Made by a program: the position numbers and the translations under genes. DNA of 35,030 bases from Draconibacterium orientale. GTDB taxonomy: Bacteria > Bacteroidota > Bacteroidia > Bacteroidales > UBA1556. The stretch lies in assembly GCA_020718275.1 (NCBI GenBank), contig DYSI01000019.1, positions 1 to 35,030 of the forward strand. Reading direction: 5' to 3'. The notes below the pieces were generated by a model. It was not told the origin of the DNA and made no database searches. It saw only the letters and a list, made by a program, of their open reading frames with translations. Of this stretch, positions 3,597 through 33,355 are shown in pieces. The first letter of the stretch is position 1. Each line of letters opens with the position of its first letter.

Positions 3597-4364
3597 TTAG
3601 AGATTAAAGAGATTAGTTGCATTTCGGGTAGTTATTTCGGCCAGTTCGGTCAGGCTAAGTTGTTTTATCTCAGCCAAACGCTCCGCTACCAATTCGAGAT
3701 AGGCGCTTTCGTTGCGTCGCCCTCTATTCGGAACAGGGCTTAGATAAGGTGCGTCGGTTTCAAGGACTAGGTATTTCAAATCAATGGCTTGCAAGGTATA
3801 GGGCAATTGGGCATTTTTAAAAGTTAGAACTCCTCCAATTCCAAGCAAAAATCCCCTATCAATAATCTCTAACGCCTGCTCAGTAGTGCCCGTAAAACAA
3901 TGAAATACACCTCTTAACTTTTCAGTTTTAAAGGAATTCAACACTTCCATTATTTCATCGTGAGCCTCTCGCGAATGAATAACCAAAGGCAATTCTTGCT
4001 CAATAGACCACTGAATTTGCATTGCAAAAGCCTCCTTTTGTTGCGCAATAAAGTTTTTATCCCAATACAAATCAATACCAACTTCACCAATTGCAATATA
4101 GTTGTTGGAAGACAACAACATTTTCATTTTCGACAGAACTATCTGATAATCATCACCTACCGAGCTAGGATGCAATCCCATCATCGGAAATAGCAGTTGA
4201 GGATACTGAGCGCAAAGTTGATGCATTGGCTCAATACTTTGGAGGTCGATATTGGGCAAGAGTATGTTGGCAAGGCCTTTTTGAGTGGCGCGTGCTATCA
4301 TTTCGTCTCGGTCGCTATCAAATTCTTCAGCGTAGAGATGGGCGTGGGTGTCGATGAGAATCAT
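3597..4364 (-). CDS. TatD family metal-dependent hydrolase
   Basis: DTHAHLYAEEFDSDRD, AIGEVGIDLYWD, LPLVIHSREAHDE, GVFHCFTGT and LETDAPYLSP motifs. Confidence 0.93.
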   Translation of the reverse strand: MILIDTHAHLYAEEFDSDRDEMIARATQKGLANILLPNIDLQSIEPMHQLCAQYPQLLFPMMGLHPSSVGDDYQIVLSKMKMLLSSNNYIAIGEVGIDLYWDKNFIAQQKEAFAMQIQWSIEQELPLVIHSREAHDEIMEVLNSFKTEKLRGVFHCFTGTTEQALEIIDRGFLLGIGGVLTFKNAQLPYTLQAIDLKYLVLETDAPYLSPVPNRGRRNESAYLELVAERLAEIKQLSLTELAEITTRNATNLFNL

Positions 4365-4491
4365 GAGGCAAAATTAGGAATTTAAAAGCAGCTCTTCTAT
4401 CTTTGCAATAATTCTTTCAGCAGGATATAGGCTGTATTTGCAGTTGCATGCAAATTCATGTTTTAGCTTTCAGAAAATCAAATCGATACGG

Positions 4492-5481
4492 ATGAAATTA
4501 TTAATAATCAGGTTCAGTTCCATCGGCGACATCGTGCTCACCACTCCTTTGCTACGCGTGTTAGCACAGGCTGATGAAAAGCATGAAATCCATTATGTAA
4601 CAAAGAAAAAGTATTTACAAGTGATAGCTCATAATCCGTACATATCGAAAATCCACACTTTTGAGCATGGAATTACAGAAGTTGAAAAAAATTTGCAAGT
4701 CGAACACTTTGATTTCGTGCTAGATTTACACCATAATTTACGATCGCACCGATTGATTGCCACTTTGGGGCGTCCCAGCAAAAGTTTCAACAAGCTAAAT
4801 TATGAAAAGTGGATTGCAGTGAATTTCAAATGGAATATTTTGCCAGCAGTACATATCGTTAAACGCTATTTTGATCCACTGAGTTTTCTGAATTTAAAAT
4901 ACGATGGACAAGGTTTGGATTATTTTACAGGTGAAATAGATAGCGCCAAAATGCAATCCTTCGATATTAATTTCGAAGAAAATTTTATAGTCTTTGTAGT
5001 TGGTGGAGCCCATGCCACCAAACAGATACCGGAGGATATTTTAATAAAAATAGCAGCCAATTGTCAGAATAAAATTGTGCTATTAGGCGGAAAGGATGAC
5101 GTAACGAAAGCAAATAATCTCGCACTACAAATAGGCGTTGGATGTCACAACCTGACGGCACAGCTAAGTTTAAACGAATCGGCTTGGGTGGTCAGCAAAA
5201 GTACAAAAGTACTCACCTCTGACACTGGGCTTATGCATATTGCAGCAGCTTATAAAAAGGAAATAATAAGTCTGTGGGGCAATACCATTCCTGAATTTGG
5301 GATGTATCCCTTGATGCCGTTAGGCTTAGAAAAACAATCCCATATTTTTGAGGTTAAAGGTTTGAAATGTCGGCCATGCAGTAAGATTGGTTTTAAGACT
5401 TGTCCAAAAAAACATTTTCATTGCATGACACTTCAAGACATTGATGGAATTAGGGAAGCCCTGCATCGAGAAAAATATTGA
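4492..5481 (+). CDS. Glycosyltransferase family 9 (heptosyltransferase-like)
   Basis: MKLLIIRFSSIGDIVLTTPLLRVL from the internal start at 4492; SDTGLMHIAAA motif near the C-terminus. ORF opens at 4438. Confidence 0.88.
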   Translation: MKLLIIRFSSIGDIVLTTPLLRVLAQADEKHEIHYVTKKKYLQVIAHNPYISKIHTFEHGITEVEKNLQVEHFDFVLDLHHNLRSHRLIATLGRPSKSFNKLNYEKWIAVNFKWNILPAVHIVKRYFDPLSFLNLKYDGQGLDYFTGEIDSAKMQSFDINFEENFIVFVVGGAHATKQIPEDILIKIAANCQNKIVLLGGKDDVTKANNLALQIGVGCHNLTAQLSLNESAWVVSKSTKVLTSDTGLMHIAAAYKKEIISLWGNTIPEFGMYPLMPLGLEKQSHIFEVKGLKCRPCSKIGFKTCPKKHFHCMTLQDIDGIREALHREKY

Positions 5482-13271: not shown

Positions 13272-16200
13272 TTAACTTTGTGGAAATACCCATTGATTCA
13301 GATTAGATAATTTATCGAGCGCATGACCTAATGAACTCAGATTTCCAAAATTGAGCGTCAGTTTACCATTAATTTCCTTTACCGCAAGGGCGGCAGGATG
13401 CAATTGGATATAACTGATAATTTTGCCAAAAGTATCGCTGGAATAATAGGACGAATCTTGCTGATACACGAGGTACGCAATCATCTTCTGATTTTTAATC
13501 ACGACCTTTTCAAAACCAAGTTGTTGAGCTGTCCAACGTAGGCGAATGCTATCCATCAAACCCATAACAGGAGCGGGAATAGCGCCAAATCGATCGCTAA
13601 TTTCCTCTTCAAAAAGGGCCAATTCCTCCTCACTTTTGCAAGCATCCAATTTTTTGTAAAGCACCAATCGCTCAGCCGTTTGTTCGACATAATAGTCGGG
13701 GATTAGCAATTCGAGATCCGATTCGAAGCGGCTATCCGACACAAAGTATTTTTGTTTGCGGGCGTTTTCTTCCTTAAAAACATCTTTAAACTCATTTTCT
13801 TTGAGTTCCTGAATCGCTTCATCCATAATTTGATGAAACATTTCGAAGCCAATTTCAGAGATAAAACCACTCTGTTCGGCACCCAAAATATTCCCAGCAC
13901 CACGAATGTCTAAATCGCGCATCGAAATATTGAATCCCGAACCCAAATCAGAAAATTCCTCAATGGCTTGCAAGCGTTTTTTAGCTTCGGGGGTAAGCAC
14001 TGATAAGGGCGGCGAAAGGAGATAGCAAAAGGCTTTTTTATTGGTACGCCCTACTCTACCACGAAGTTGATGTAAATCGCTAAGTCCGTAATTATGAGCA
14101 TCATATATTATCATTGTATTGGCATTTGGAATATCCAAACCAGATTCAACGATGGTAGTTGCAACCAAAACATCATAATCACCGGCAATAAAATCCATCA
14201 TTGTTTGCTCAAGTTTTGCCCCGTCCATTTGTCCGTGGCCAACCGCCACGCGAGCCTGTGGAACTAATTTATTAATTAAGCCAGCAATTTCGTAAATATT
14301 CTGGATTCGATTATTGATCACATACACCTGACCGCGGCGCGAAATTTCGTATTGAATTGCGTTCCGAATAATATCTTCATTAATTGGATGAAGCTCGGTT
14401 TGCACAGGATATCGATTAGGTGGTGGAGTATTAATAATGCTTAAATCACGAGCTCCCATCAGGGAAAATTGAAGTGTTCGCGGAATAGGCGTGGCGGTGA
14501 GTGTTAGTGTATCGACATTTACTTTTATATTTTTCAACTTTTCTTTGATGCTGACGCCAAATTTTTGCTCTTCGTCAACAATCAGCAGCCCTAGATCCTT
14601 GAATTCTATGTCTTTGCTTACAATGCGATGGGTACCTATTAAAATATCGATTTGTCCACTTTTCAACTTTTGCAAAGTCTCCTGTTGCTGCTTAGCCGAG
14701 CGAAATCGGTTGATATAATCCACTTTAACGGGAAAATTTTCAAGCCTACTTTTAAAAGTATTATAATGTTGCAAGGCCAAAATAGTGGTTGGAACCAGCA
14801 CCGCCACTTGCTTATTATCACTCACTGCTTTGAATGCAGCCCGAATAGCAACCTCTGTTTTGCCAAAGCCTACATCGCCACAAACCAAGCGATCCATAGG
14901 ATTACTGCTCTCCATATCCCGCTTAATATCCTCGGTAGCTTTTGATTGGTCGGGGGTGTCTTCGTAGAAAAACGAAGCTTCCAACTCGTTTTGCAAAAAG
15001 CTATCAGGCTCAAAGGCATAACCATGCACCGCTTTTCGTTTTGCATAGAGTGCTATTAAATCTTTGGCAATATCCTTAACTTTTGATTTTGTTTTTGCCT
15101 TTAACAATGACCAAGCCTTTGAACCTAATTTACTTAGCTGTGGCTCGGTTCCATCTTTGCTTACAAATTTAGAGATGCGATGCAAGGCATGAATACTCAC
15201 ATAGATAAGGTCATTGTTGAGAAAGTGCAAACGAATGGCTTCTTGCTCTTTGCCGTTATTATTAATTTTTTCTAAACCTCCAAAGCGTGCAATTCCATGG
15301 TCAACATGGGTGACAAAGTCGCCAGGCTGCAAATTATAAATCTCTTTGAGGGTAATCGCTTCCTTATTACTAAAACGCTCTTTGATATGAAAACGATGGT
15401 ATCGGTCGAAAATCTGATGGTCGGTATAACAAGCAATATTCAATTCATTATCAATAAAACCACTTTCGAGGCTAACTAAAACAGGCTCCCAATCAATACT
15501 TTGGCTCATTTTAGAAACATCTTTAAAAATACTACTAATGCGTTTTATCTGATTCTCTTGATCAACCATGATAAAATTGCGAATGCCTTTGTCGGTATTT
15601 TGCCGCAAATTCTCAACTACCAGTTCAAAACTTTTGTGAAATAGTGGCTGCGGACTCAACATAAATTGAAAAGATTCGGCGCTTGGAAATAGCGTGGAAT
15701 GATCCGCTATCTCGATAGTATTATGACGATCTAATGCGTTCTTAAGCAAAGCTGAATCGCAAAACAACTCATTAGGATGCAATGGCTTGACTCCATTTTT
15801 AAGCGTATTGAAAATTTCCTTAGCTTTATCGAAGGCTTGATCCACCACTTGAAAGATATAGTCAAAATTCTTAGCCCAAATTTGTGAATCTGGGGGCATA
15901 AAAGTGAGCATGTCCGTTCTTTTTTCCAAGATGCCACGATCCTGAACATTTGGAATAATTTGAATTTTTTTATGATGTTCGATTGAGCGTTGAGTGCTAG
16001 GATCGAAGCTACGAATACTTTCCACCTCGTCGCCAAAAAATTCAATCCGATAAGGAAAATCGTTGGAGAAAGAGAATACATCAATTAAACCCCCGCGGTA
16101 TGAAAACTGGCCTGGCTCAACCACAAAATCAACCATCGAAAAACCATATTCTTGCAATAATTCGACAATAAAATCAAGGTTCACTTCTTCGCCTTGACTT

Positions 16201-28241: not shown

Positions 28242-28728
28242 ATAGAAATTTCTTAGAAAATTGTTTGGATATCTTTAGAAATTAAACAAAAATCTATCCA
28301 AAAATGCTATTCTTTTCAATTCGGCTAAATGAAATTTCTATAAAAAGTCATTTCGTCGCTATAATATTCAATTCGCTAATTACGAAGGTGTTGTATTTTT
28401 TAAAGCGTTTTTGATTATAAAACATTCGACCTCTTAGCGATTGGAGTGGTTGTTTACACACCTCTGATGTTTTTTTTCAAATTCTCCTATGAATTAAGTT
28501 TATAAGACCAAAGCGTAATTATTTAGAGGGGCAAATAACAGAAGTATTTTAAAACTACGCTTATTAATTCAAAAAAAATCGGTAATAAATTCGGCTAAAT
28601 GCAGTTTGTTGATTCTCTGTTTGGTTTTATTTTTCACAAGAATTATTGTAGCTTGTTACCTATTTTTGTTCTATAAATGAATGGCCTTTGTTGGCTAAGC
28701 AATTTTGTTTTTTAAGTAGAAATACCTC

Positions 28729-29286
28729 ATGCAAAAAGAGACTTATAACGTGATTAAGGAAAGCAAGGATAAGGGGCTGAAAGTCTTTTATGAGAGGTAT
28801 AGTAAGAAGTTGTTTTCGTATTCGATTTCGCATCTTAAACTCGACGAGGACGAAGCTTGGAATTTGATTTACAGTTCGTTTGAAAAGATTATGACGAAAG
28901 TAAAATCCTACACCTTCGAAAGCGAAGCCAAATTTGGGGCTTTTGTTTTGGTGGTCTTTCTCAACGATTTTCGCAATCTCTACAAAAGCCGAAAAAAGGA
29001 AATTCAATTCGATTTTAGCGAGAATATCGACGATTACAAATCATTGCCACAGGAACCGGAGAATAGCGAAAACGACTCCGAAAAAATGTGCCTGCTGAAA
29101 CGCGAACTTGAAAAATTGGAGGATTGGCAACGGATGTTGCTCCTGCTAAAAGCTCAACAAATGCCCTATTCTCAAATCGCAGAGTATGTGCAAAAACCTG
29201 AAAATCAGCTAAAAGTTTATTACGCGCGATTGAAGAAGAAACTAATGGAAAACATTTTATCGACAAAGGAGGTGCCCAATGATTAA
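28729..29286 (+). CDS. ECF/sigma-70 family RNA polymerase sigma factor
   Basis: 185 aa; region 2-like ERYSKKLFSYSISHLKLDEDEAWNLIYSSFEKI...YTFESEAKFGAFVLVVFLNDFRNLYK and region 4-like LEDWQRMLLLLKAQQMPYSQIAEYVQKPENQLKVYYARLKKKL. Confidence 0.82.
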   Translation: MQKETYNVIKESKDKGLKVFYERYSKKLFSYSISHLKLDEDEAWNLIYSSFEKIMTKVKSYTFESEAKFGAFVLVVFLNDFRNLYKSRKKEIQFDFSENIDDYKSLPQEPENSENDSEKMCLLKRELEKLEDWQRMLLLLKAQQMPYSQIAEYVQKPENQLKVYYARLKKKLMENILSTKEVPND

Positions 29287-32113
29287 TAACAAACTTCATT
29301 TTCAGCTCAATGAGTTGGACGACCTTCTTTTACAGACCATCATGGAGGATTTTAATACTAATTTAGAAATTCAAAAAACTATGGAAATGAGCATGAATTA
29401 CATCCAATCGCTGCCCTTAGAACAAAGTATCGCCCTAAGTTTTGAAAACAAATTTAACAAACTATTTAAAAACTATCGTTTTGCTAAGTTATTTTGGTCA
29501 GGCACTCTGATTATCAGTTTGATAGTTGCCTTATTAAACATCAACCTTTCCTCGACAACCAACTCACATCCAAGCACCCCAAACTCCTCCTCTTCAATCT
29601 TTTACAACGAAACCATCGATAGCGTGGAAGCAAATCCAAAGGCAGATTCAGTGATTGAATCAATCAACAATCGCTCAATCGTCGGAGATTCTGCTTTAGA
29701 AATAGTAATTGATTCCACCAAAATCACAGGATATCATTCAACAACCACCTCATTCCAAAGAATTTCCCAGCAAACAGGCAGCAGTTATAAATATAAAATA
29801 TTTGATGAGGAGTTTGCAATTGCTGTTCTTCCAAACCAAAACAGCGTAAAACTCGAACCTTCTTACTACGGCCTAAATGGTTATAAAACGATTATTTACA
29901 AGCCATTAAGCAGTTATTATTCTAAAGTATTGGATTCAGCTGGCAAACCGGCAAAAAAACCTGACTATCAAATTCTGCCCCTCTATGAAGGAATTCCATT
30001 TAAAAAACATTTCGACCATTTTACCTTTATCAGTCTAACGCCGCAATTGGAAAAACCTTCCACCAAGCTTAACGACATTACAATTAATAAGCGTTTACCT
30101 CAAACAATCGACCTATATTTCGATGATCAATCCCCTGATTTTTATGCAAATAAACTGATGCTGAACGATGAAAACCTAAAATTTATAGCTCCATTTTATA
30201 TCAGTAATTACGAGATATCTAACCTAGATTACCGCGAATTTTTGGTGTGGGTTGCAAAATATAATGGCTTGGATTATATCAAATTCACCAACGACAGTTT
30301 AAATTATTATAAACCCTATCTTATTTATATATTCCATTCAGAAGATCAAGAGGTTACAAAAAGATTTGGCACAAATACGATTAATGTCATGCCCAAAACC
30401 GATGTATGGGAAACCGATTTTCCAAATTCCTACAACCAACCAATGACAACACATTATTTGGCTCATCCTGCCTATAATCATTATCCTGTGGTTGGGGTAA
30501 CATATTGGCAAGCATTGGCTTACCTCGATTGGCTCACTTGGATTTGGCAATCGCGAATCGATGCGCAAAATATTCCTTATGAGATAAAATACGATTTGCC
30601 AACGGCTTATGAATGGGAAAGAAGCTGCGAATATACCTTGAATCAACATGCTATGGATTTTCCGATTTTCAACGGAGTTTGCAATTTGGCAGTCGAAAAT
30701 ATAGCAGATTTAGATTATCGACGAGCCTTGGGATTGATTCATAGCAATCATTTTGAACAAGTTATGGAATATTTCCACACGAGTTTAGTCACGTCACCAA
30801 CCTCTTCCAACCCGCCATTGAAAGACGGCATTTTGAATATGGCCGGCAATGTTTCGGAGTGGCTTAAGGAGGATTATCAGGGAAATTGGTCAGGCTATTA
30901 TTCGAGAAAAAGTGAAGAACTTGCTCAATCTGACCAAGCTTCATCCAAAATTTTCTTGGCCACTATGAGCTATTTCGACGAAACCTGCAATCATCCCAAA
31001 GGGAAAATGGTCATGGGCTCCAATTGGTTCGACCGCCGCTGGACCGACCGAAGCATTACTTTGGCCAATGGCATGTCGGTTAAGGCTTTTATCAATCCCG
31101 ATGAAGCCCATAGCACGGTGGGTTTTCGCCCTGCGATCAGAATAAGGTTGAAAAACGAGCAAGCAATAATCAACACCATTCGCATTCTTGGTCGCGTTTT
31201 GCCCGATATAGATTATAGTTTGATGCAACTTAAAAACACGGTTGATTTGCCATCCCTTGCTTTTGTGTCTATGGGCTCCTTCAAATCGAAGGGCAAAACC
31301 ATCAGTGTTCAGGCATTTTATGCTATGAAAACAGAGGTTTCAAATTTTGCTTGGATGCTGTTTCTGAACGATTTATTAAAATCAGGAGAAATGGCAAAAC
31401 TACAGGAATGTATTCCTTCCGAGTCAGACTGGGCGCTCAAAATGACTTACGAAACGGGAATGTATAAAGATTGGAAATGGGCTGACCGTTGGAAATATTT
31501 ACCGTTTTCAAAGAAATTTATTAGCGATAATAAACTGAAGGAGATTCCTTTAACTTCTTTCGCTTTTGAACCTGTGGTGGGAATCAGCCATAAAGCGATG
31601 CAATATTTCGCCCAATGGATGAGCGAGAAAAGCGGATTTGAAAACGATTTTCGACTTCCGATGGAGTTGGAATATGAGAGGATGAGCTTAGGTGGATTTT
31701 CTTCGGATTCAGTGATTTATCCTTGGCAAGGTATGTTTATGCGCGACTATCGGGGCTTGCTTTTGGCGCGATACCATACTCATATCTCCGATTTCGGAAA
31801 AGGTGATTCACCGATTCTTCCAACGGATTCAATTTTTTTCAACCAAAGAAAAACCTTACATGCTACCGATTCAAATTGGAGAAATCCAACCGGACCTTAC
31901 CTAATAGCATCCTTTAAACCAAACGGTTATGGTATTTATGATTTAGCTGGAAATGCCGCTGAGGCCGTTTATGAAACCGGATTTACCAAAGGAGGCAGTT
32001 GGGGCAGTACTTCCGCTTTCCTCCAAATCCAACAAAGGGAATATTGGTCGAGCCAAAGCTCTGATTGTGTTGGGTTTAGGTTGGTGATGGCGTATTTGGG
32101 AAAGAGGGAGTGA
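29279..32113 (+). CDS. Single-TM protein with two tandem FGE-sulfatase (SUMF1/GldK-like) domains, candidate anti-sigma or sensor partner
   Basis: Start overlaps the sigma-factor stop by 8 bp, preceded by AAAGGAGGTG. TM around aa 71-90 (LFWSGTLIISLIVALLNINL). Domain 1 motifs: FYISNYEISNLDYREFLVW, YPVVGVTYWQALAYLDWLTW, YDLPTAYEWERSCEY, LNMAGNVSEWL, VGFRPAIRI. Domain 2 motifs: FYAMKTEVSNFAWMLFLND, FRLPMELEYERMS, GIYDLAGNAAEAVYETGFTKGGSWGS, VGFRLVMAY. Confidence 0.85.
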   Translation: MINNKLHFQLNELDDLLLQTIMEDFNTNLEIQKTMEMSMNYIQSLPLEQSIALSFENKFNKLFKNYRFAKLFWSGTLIISLIVALLNINLSSTTNSHPSTPNSSSSIFYNETIDSVEANPKADSVIESINNRSIVGDSALEIVIDSTKITGYHSTTTSFQRISQQTGSSYKYKIFDEEFAIAVLPNQNSVKLEPSYYGLNGYKTIIYKPLSSYYSKVLDSAGKPAKKPDYQILPLYEGIPFKKHFDHFTFISLTPQLEKPSTKLNDITINKRLPQTIDLYFDDQSPDFYANKLMLNDENLKFIAPFYISNYEISNLDYREFLVWVAKYNGLDYIKFTNDSLNYYKPYLIYIFHSEDQEVTKRFGTNTINVMPKTDVWETDFPNSYNQPMTTHYLAHPAYNHYPVVGVTYWQALAYLDWLTWIWQSRIDAQNIPYEIKYDLPTAYEWERSCEYTLNQHAMDFPIFNGVCNLAVENIADLDYRRALGLIHSNHFEQVMEYFHTSLVTSPTSSNPPLKDGILNMAGNVSEWLKEDYQGNWSGYYSRKSEELAQSDQASSKIFLATMSYFDETCNHPKGKMVMGSNWFDRRWTDRSITLANGMSVKAFINPDEAHSTVGFRPAIRIRLKNEQAIINTIRILGRVLPDIDYSLMQLKNTVDLPSLAFVSMGSFKSKGKTISVQAFYAMKTEVSNFAWMLFLNDLLKSGEMAKLQECIPSESDWALKMTYETGMYKDWKWADRWKYLPFSKKFISDNKLKEIPLTSFAFEPVVGISHKAMQYFAQWMSEKSGFENDFRLPMELEYERMSLGGFSSDSVIYPWQGMFMRDYRGLLLARYHTHISDFGKGDSPILPTDSIFFNQRKTLHATDSNWRNPTGPYLIASFKPNGYGIYDLAGNAAEAVYETGFTKGGSWGSTSAFLQIQQREYWSSQSSDCVGFRLVMAYLGKRE

Positions 32114-32421: not shown

Positions 32422-33355
32422 TCAATTATTTACATTGGATATCCAAGTAATTTCAGTTTTACGTTCGGGAATGCTATGCAAAATAACCGCAGGAAAACCA
32501 ATGGTCATTGCAGCATAGCATTTATGCCCTTTCGGGATTTTTAAAAACCTCTCTAATTTTTTAAATCCTTTCAAATGATCCCCTGCTGCTGCTCCTTGTA
32601 TCAAGCCATTCCAACAAGTTCCGAGACCATTTGCCTCAGCAAATAATTGAATTTGCAGGCATGCAGCATCACAATCTATTTGTGGAGTTGAGGATTTAAT
32701 TGGCGCATGGAGGAAAATTGCAACAGGTGCATTGTAGGTAATTAAGTTGTTTCCTGTTCTATACTCATTTAAAGCCTCTCTAAAACTGGGAACTACCCCT
32801 ATACCAGCTTTTGCTCTGTCATCAAATTTCGCTGCCCATTTCATAAACCAACTGCCCAACAATTTAATCATTTTTTCCATGTATTCCGTTGTCATTACTG
32901 TAACGATTTCCATGTTTTCATGACCAACTACTACCGCGGCATTTCTAACCCAACCAACTCTATGATGTGGACTACTTGGGGCGTAAGCGGCAATATCCAA
33001 TACTTTTGCTAATAACTCTTTTGAGGGTATCTCTTTTTTATAATTTCGTAATGAACGTCGTTGAGTTAACAATCTGAATGCCATATCTGTATCGATTGAT
33101 TGATGATCGTTAATTGGGATGAAATTGTTTTTATCAAATCCACTATGAGTGATTGAATTTGTTGTACAAGCACATAAACATTGTCCACACAATACACATT
33201 CGTCGTTATTTTCGATTTGGGGGACTTCCCCCTTTTCTATAATTAAATACCCCAATTGGACAGATTTTTGAACAAAGTCCACATTTTGTGCAGGTATCTG
33301 CATTAATTGAAATTGTAGGCGAATATTCAAATCTATTTTCCATATATTGCTCCAT
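32422..33355 (-). pseudogene. Ferredoxin (2x[4Fe-4S])-nitroreductase fusion with a 1-nt frameshift near 33245-33250
   Basis: ORF 32422..33330 carries only the second cluster CVLCGQCLCAC and the nitroreductase domain. The other frame from ATG 33355 encodes MEQYMENRFEYSPTISINADTCTKCGLCSKICPIGV, the missing first cluster. Removing one T from minus-strand GTATTTAA gives continuous CPIGVLIIEKGEVPQIENNDECVLCGQC. Confidence 0.8.

Follow-up and report, generated by a model that had tools for sequence, protein, structure and literature searches.

The window analysed here, a stretch of 35,030 nucleotides from Draconibacterium orientale, holds two overlapping genes that we consider likely to encode an ECF sigma factor and its membrane anti-sigma factor, whose sensor would be a non-catalytic FGE fold of the PorK/GldK type. 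The sigma factor gene (185 aa) is located at 28729..29286 on the forward strand. It is followed on the same strand by the gene for a 944-aa single-pass membrane protein with its N-terminus inside (29279..32113), the probable anti-sigma factor. Both ORFs are where the sequence-only reading had placed them, with the 8 bp overlap it described, and the canonical Shine-Dalgarno sequence it had noticed before the partner gene is indeed present (AAAGGAGGTG, 29265..29274, forward strand). The overlap suggests that the sigma factor and its partner are co-expressed. The genes flanking the pair are oriented in the opposite direction, and thus the operon in the window consists of the sigma factor and the partner only. 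The adjoining gene on the opposite strand (32422-33330) encodes a protein of the nitroreductase family whose N-terminal part is probably ferredoxin-like. The pair is found on contig C56 of a 1.97 Mb genome that is 71% complete.

The sigma2 and sigma4 regions of the window sigma factor both exceed the curated cut-offs of general ECF models only, namely TIGR02937 (56.1 bits, cut-off 42.9) and Sigma70_r4_2 (PF08281; 26.5 bits, cut-off 25.7). No NCBIfam equivalog or subfamily cut-off was reached. The sigma factor belongs to a clan that is recognized by its own profile. In the order sample, clan members score at least 147 bits and occur in 6 of 295 genomes, and the next ECF factor scores 51 bits. 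About 19 of the 395 genomes in the class sample carry a clan sigma factor. Scanning 84,980 species genomes with the sigma profile gave 65 loci, partly coinciding with the other clan loci of this analysis, all of which are in Bacteroidota except for one weak match in Ignavibacteria. Metagenome-assembled genomes (MAGs) account for nearly all of the clan members found. Within the genus, 3 of 11 genomes carry the sigma factor, always with the FGE gene directly after it, and it is thus an accessory trait; in a fourth genome the FGE gene is located at a contig end. We call this an ECF group undescribed so far, on the basis of a comparison with NCBIfam. The literature searched, which did not extend to the 2021 re-classification paper, contained no description of FGE/SUMF1 together with an anti-sigma or ECF factor.

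A gene pair found in one genome could be accidental, as the sequence-only reading had allowed. Among the clan loci with a readable next gene, a co-directional gene lies directly after the sigma factor in 63/63. The two genes overlap or abut nearly always, and in most loci the overlap is 1-50 nt. The downstream gene encodes an FGE protein in 44/62 clan loci, compared to 0/35 other ECF loci in the same order (Fisher p ~3e-13). The gene-neighbourhood survey thus recovered the pair in approximately 60 Bacteroidota loci, and this recurrence, together with the ECF control, rules out accidental pairing.

Shine-Dalgarno use is rare in Bacteroidota. GGAGG-type sites are found upstream of the partner gene in the window and in its seven nearest relatives and are rare elsewhere. 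In the same loci, no sigma gene (0/63) has such a site, and 5/313 other genes do. Because the site is kept in this clade though rare in the phylum, selection in the clade appears to have favored a partner that is translated strongly or in a coupled manner.

The sequence-only reading gave the partner about 70 aa of cytoplasmic N-terminus, one transmembrane (TM) helix and two FGE-like domains outside the membrane. This layout holds: the protein has about 65 cytoplasmic residues, a single TM helix and two copies of the FGE-sulfatase domain (PF03781). The hydrophobic helix begins at about residue 66-68, with four K/R before it and none after, as expected for an N-in protein. The TM helix, as delimited by AlphaFold2 and a reading of hydrophobicity and charge, spans residues 66-94 (29474..29560, forward strand). 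Just before it is the cytoplasmic part proposed to bind the sigma factor (residues 10-64; 29306..29470, forward strand), which recurs in all partners. A linker of low model confidence (residues 95-301; 29561..30181, forward strand; pLDDT mostly <50) leads to the outer domains. The first 110 residues contain no lipobox, in keeping with the earlier view that the protein has a TM anchor instead of a lipid one. The clan partners are built alike. Nearly all have a single TM helix near residue 70 (median start, residue 72), K/R are more frequent before the helix than after it in 51/61, and no lipobox was found.

Two AlphaFold2 runs placed three helices at about residues 10-25, 29-44 and 49-64, followed by a helix that includes the hydrophobic stretch and extends to residue 92-94. 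The N-terminal model, built from 54 sequences, has a mean pLDDT of 78.5 and a low pTM (0.34). The helix layout resembles that of class I anti-sigma domains (ASDI) but is not diagnostic. Searches of residues 1-105 against known anti-sigma domains (Pfam, PDB sequences and Foldseek) found no match in sequence or fold, which, like the low pTM, counts against the anti-sigma reading.

The outer part of the partner is exchangeable. Among 62 intact partners, it is FGE in 44, a repeat fold in eight, MG2/A2M in five, FecR in one, DUF3471 in one, and something else in three. All 18 non-FGE partners keep the N-terminus and the TM helix. The repeat fold looks DUF4097-like by eye, and the one example tested had no Pfam match. 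On the sigma tree (a quick tree with moderate support), the outer-domain labels require nine changes. At five loci (L162, L187, L188, L189, and L211; L188 is truncated where its contig stops), a 1117-aa outer part with MG2/alpha-2-macroglobulin and carboxypeptidase-regulatory domains replaces FGE. With a constant N-terminus and TM helix and a swapped outer domain, the partner behaves like an anti-sigma factor. The swapped domains are the strongest argument, one from gene structure, that the N-terminus rather than the FGE part would serve the sigma factor. They also support the anti-sigma topology that had been suggested from the window, particularly as one of the exchanged domains is FecR. FecR is an established anti-sigma family.

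The clan member with FecR raises the question of whether the partner is instead a FecR-like two-way regulator, without which the sigma factor would not be activated and which an outer-membrane transducer would cut or drive, as in the FecI/FecR system. Like FecI/FecR of Bacteroidota, the pair combines a sigma factor with an inner-membrane regulator, and the one clan member carries a true FecR and FecR_C domain pair at the same place. We regard this reading as improbable. The window protein contains PF03781 only and no FecR domain (PF04773), the FecR outer domain is limited to 1/62 partners, and no TonB-dependent transducer gene was recognized beside the window pair or stood out in an unsystematic look at its relatives.

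The favored reading, an anti-sigma factor with a PorK-like sensor, also draws on the nature of the FGE domains. Domain 1 (residues 302-617; 30182..31129, forward strand) is PorK/GldK-like, matching PF03781 and, by phmmer, PorK (E 4e-12). Domain 2 (residues ~673-936; 31295..32086, forward strand) matches PF03781 with an E-value of 2.8e-18. The two copies score 127 bits in all. Taken at face value, these matches would also suit outer domains that act as FGE/EgtB-type enzymes on an envelope protein, under regulation by the sigma factor. The sequence-only reading had seen no catalytic cysteine pattern, and this was found across the clan: the C-x4-C pair after the GGSY motif is absent from all 46 partner domains with a readable motif region, including those of the window, which have GSNWFDRRWTDRSITL and GGSWGSTSAFLQIQQR at the site. 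An active FGE was rejected on account of the missing cysteine pair. PorK, the nearest relative, is itself a cysteine-less FGE fold that acts as a docking hub for PorN (PMC12421860), and we consider the enzyme reading very unlikely.

The best named family of the window partner is NCBIfam GldK (TIGR03525), at a sub-threshold score (177.7 vs. 350 bits). A profile of 13 two-domain partners matched PorK with 222 bits and its best FGE with 58 bits. Foldseek with the full-length partner model, a poor one (mean pLDDT 54.6), listed PorK structures first (E 9.5e−9) and FGEs next. The likeness to GldK/GldJ noted from the window therefore stands for GldK, and GldJ is a less apt comparison than GldK/PorK. 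The partner is not a GldK orthologue, given its sub-threshold score and the canonical gldKLMN genes elsewhere in the genome. Contig C38 encodes the true GldK (524.8 bits, cut-off 350) together with GldL, GldM and GldN, and the window protein is thus a distant paralogue that is anchored differently. It shares with PorK/GldK, the T9SS ring lipoprotein, an FGE fold without catalytic cysteines and its best match in sequence and fold, and differs in having an inner-membrane TM anchor and a cytoplasmic domain, in scoring below the GldK cut-off, and in lying outside the gldKLMN operon. In a tree, window domain 1 groups beside GldK-like proteins (99/87), and neither window domain 2 nor the partners from other orders with one domain are grouped with GldK. 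A single clade of partner FGE domains separate from GldK was not supported, as the labels (partner or GldK-like) have to change at least 3-4 times. In the related locus of the same-genus genome G006 (L034), two further GldK-like FGE genes (3864-4805 and 14469-15962) lie no more than about 6 kb from the pair, and the tree places window domain 1 close to one of them.

A paralogue of GldK could be a structural part of the envelope or T9SS that is co-transcribed with a controlling sigma factor and does not bind it. GldK as the nearest named family, the two additional GldK-like genes near the pair in G006, and PorP/SprF in the operons of some relatives are all in line with this. Against it, FGE is the part that is replaced, as 18/62 intact partners keep the N-terminus and TM helix without FGE; the protein also has no lipobox, and the window genome has its canonical GldK-L-M-N elsewhere. 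We find the structural reading unlikely for these reasons.

A 20 bp box is found at the head of the operons, with the clan consensus TGTTACC-N4-TGTGTTATA. The window copy (TGTTACC-TATT-TTTGTTCTA; 28654..28673, forward strand), a probable autoregulatory promoter element, is 75 nt before the sigma start and has one mismatch to the consensus. With up to three mismatches allowed, the box is found within 400 nt upstream of the sigma factor in 50/63 loci. In nine further loci (L192, L195, L197, L198, L203, L205, L208, L212, and L217), it heads a longer operon with the pair as its last genes, for a total of about 59/63 loci with the box at the operon head. In approximately 13 loci of a common layout, TGTTACC starts 39-41 nt upstream of the start codon. 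In 1.4 Mb of strand-searched sequence from the loci, all six other matches with 0-1 mismatch are in the same systems. An exact box occurs in 6/395 class genomes, five of which have a clan sigma factor (p 3e−6, with genomes treated as independent). As the box heads the operon in about 59/63 loci, the sigma factor probably drives, and so autoregulates, its own operon.

The only full box match in the window genome (71% complete) and in G006 (97% complete) is that of the pair itself, and no box-bearing output gene beyond the pair was found in either, which counts against the favored reading. A large regulon was rejected, because sites with two mismatches were not more common than reversed-pattern controls in the window genome and related genomes. 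A divergent promoter formed by the box on the other strand was also rejected, as that side shows no conservation. The longer box-headed operons of some relatives encode PorP/SprF (PF11751), DUF4139, VWA and predicted barrel proteins. A single box-headed operon in L203 (2202-5784) combines the sigma pair with PorP/SprF, a predicted barrel protein and a DUF4139 protein.

The geometry of the box is odd. Its two blocks are just 4 nt apart, too close for a −35 and a −10 element. This geometry does not account for recognition by the sigma factor and counts against the favored reading. If TGTTACC is the −35 element, then TGTGTTATA would be inside the spacer and the −10 element would be the weakly conserved TAAATAAG-like stretch at 28675..28682 (forward strand; box positions 22-29), a tentative assignment made from spacing and weak information content. 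A second factor may conceivably be behind the conserved spacer block.

Among known systems, RseA-type ECF/ASDI pairs are similar in having an overlapping single-pass membrane gene after the sigma factor, a short helical cytoplasmic N-terminus, a variable outer part, and apparent autoregulation. They differ in that the window N-terminus matches no known anti-sigma domain, the sensor is a PorK-like FGE fold, and the window sigma factor reaches no NCBIfam sigma equivalog. In FecI/FecR systems there is a transducer gene, and none was recognized alongside the window pair. PorXY-SigP, which controls T9SS in P. gingivalis, likewise connects T9SS genes with an ECF sigma factor, but SigP acts with a two-component system, whereas the window sigma factor has its own membrane partner. 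The Dma1/Dma2 dual membrane-spanning anti-sigma factors of Bacteroides are also from Bacteroidota and have an outer part; compared by description, they differ in that no FGE domain is mentioned for them in the text consulted (PMC13088901).

If the partner is an anti-sigma factor, one promoter at the 20 bp box would make both proteins, and the overlap and strong Shine-Dalgarno site would keep the partner level with the sigma factor. The three cytoplasmic helices of the partner would keep the sigma factor bound to the inner membrane. The two periplasmic FGE-fold domains may dock an envelope protein, peptide or glycan, as PorK docks PorN. Binding of this ligand, or its loss, would alter the cytoplasmic part or make it accessible to proteolysis, freeing the sigma factor. 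The freed sigma factor would then raise transcription of its own operon, to which relatives add outer-membrane and surface genes.

That the partner senses T9SS is a guess. Three weak links point this way: the PorK-related domain, PorP/SprF in the operons of some relatives, and T9SS in the host. We do not yet call the pair a T9SS regulator. A more specific version, to which we give little more weight than to the alternatives we find unlikely, is that the partner carries a PorK copy as bait, whose periplasmic FGE domains bind PorN or another part of the ring or translocon, and that the box is a new promoter type. If so, the cell would monitor the state of T9SS parts (free, assembled or jammed) and release the sigma factor accordingly, and the sigma factor would also read the spacer block TGTGTTATA that is normally ignored.

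The clan has a sister group in a different type of operon. Five sister sigma factors (L134, L136, L137, L138, and L142) score ~84-111 bits to the clan profile and are followed by a soluble protein of ~190 aa, a Cas4-like nuclease, a class II prokaryotic Argonaute (783 bits to PADLOC pAgo_II in L134) and a small protein. Plasmids of Emticicia oligotrophica and Spirosoma oryzicola (L267, L268) carry this operon as well. The N-terminus of the soluble protein (L134:3930-4493 and equivalents) weakly matches the anti-sigma N-terminal profile (hhalign probability 82, E 1e−5), and this protein is perhaps a cytoplasmic anti-sigma factor. An older sigma-binding module used in both membrane and Argonaute settings would suit these data. 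A sigma-controlled Argonaute defence operon would be a subject of interest by itself.

Only approximately 6% of Bacteroidetes ECF factors have a class I anti-sigma neighbour (PMC7406223), and most thus lack a recognizable one. The clan described here would be a phylum-wide ECF group in which the membrane partner is consistent, the sensor modular and the promoter predicted, and its regulation is thus directly testable. Sensing would be a further role for the cysteine-less FGE fold, in addition to those already known, and the pair raises a link to the type IX secretion ring that can be tested.
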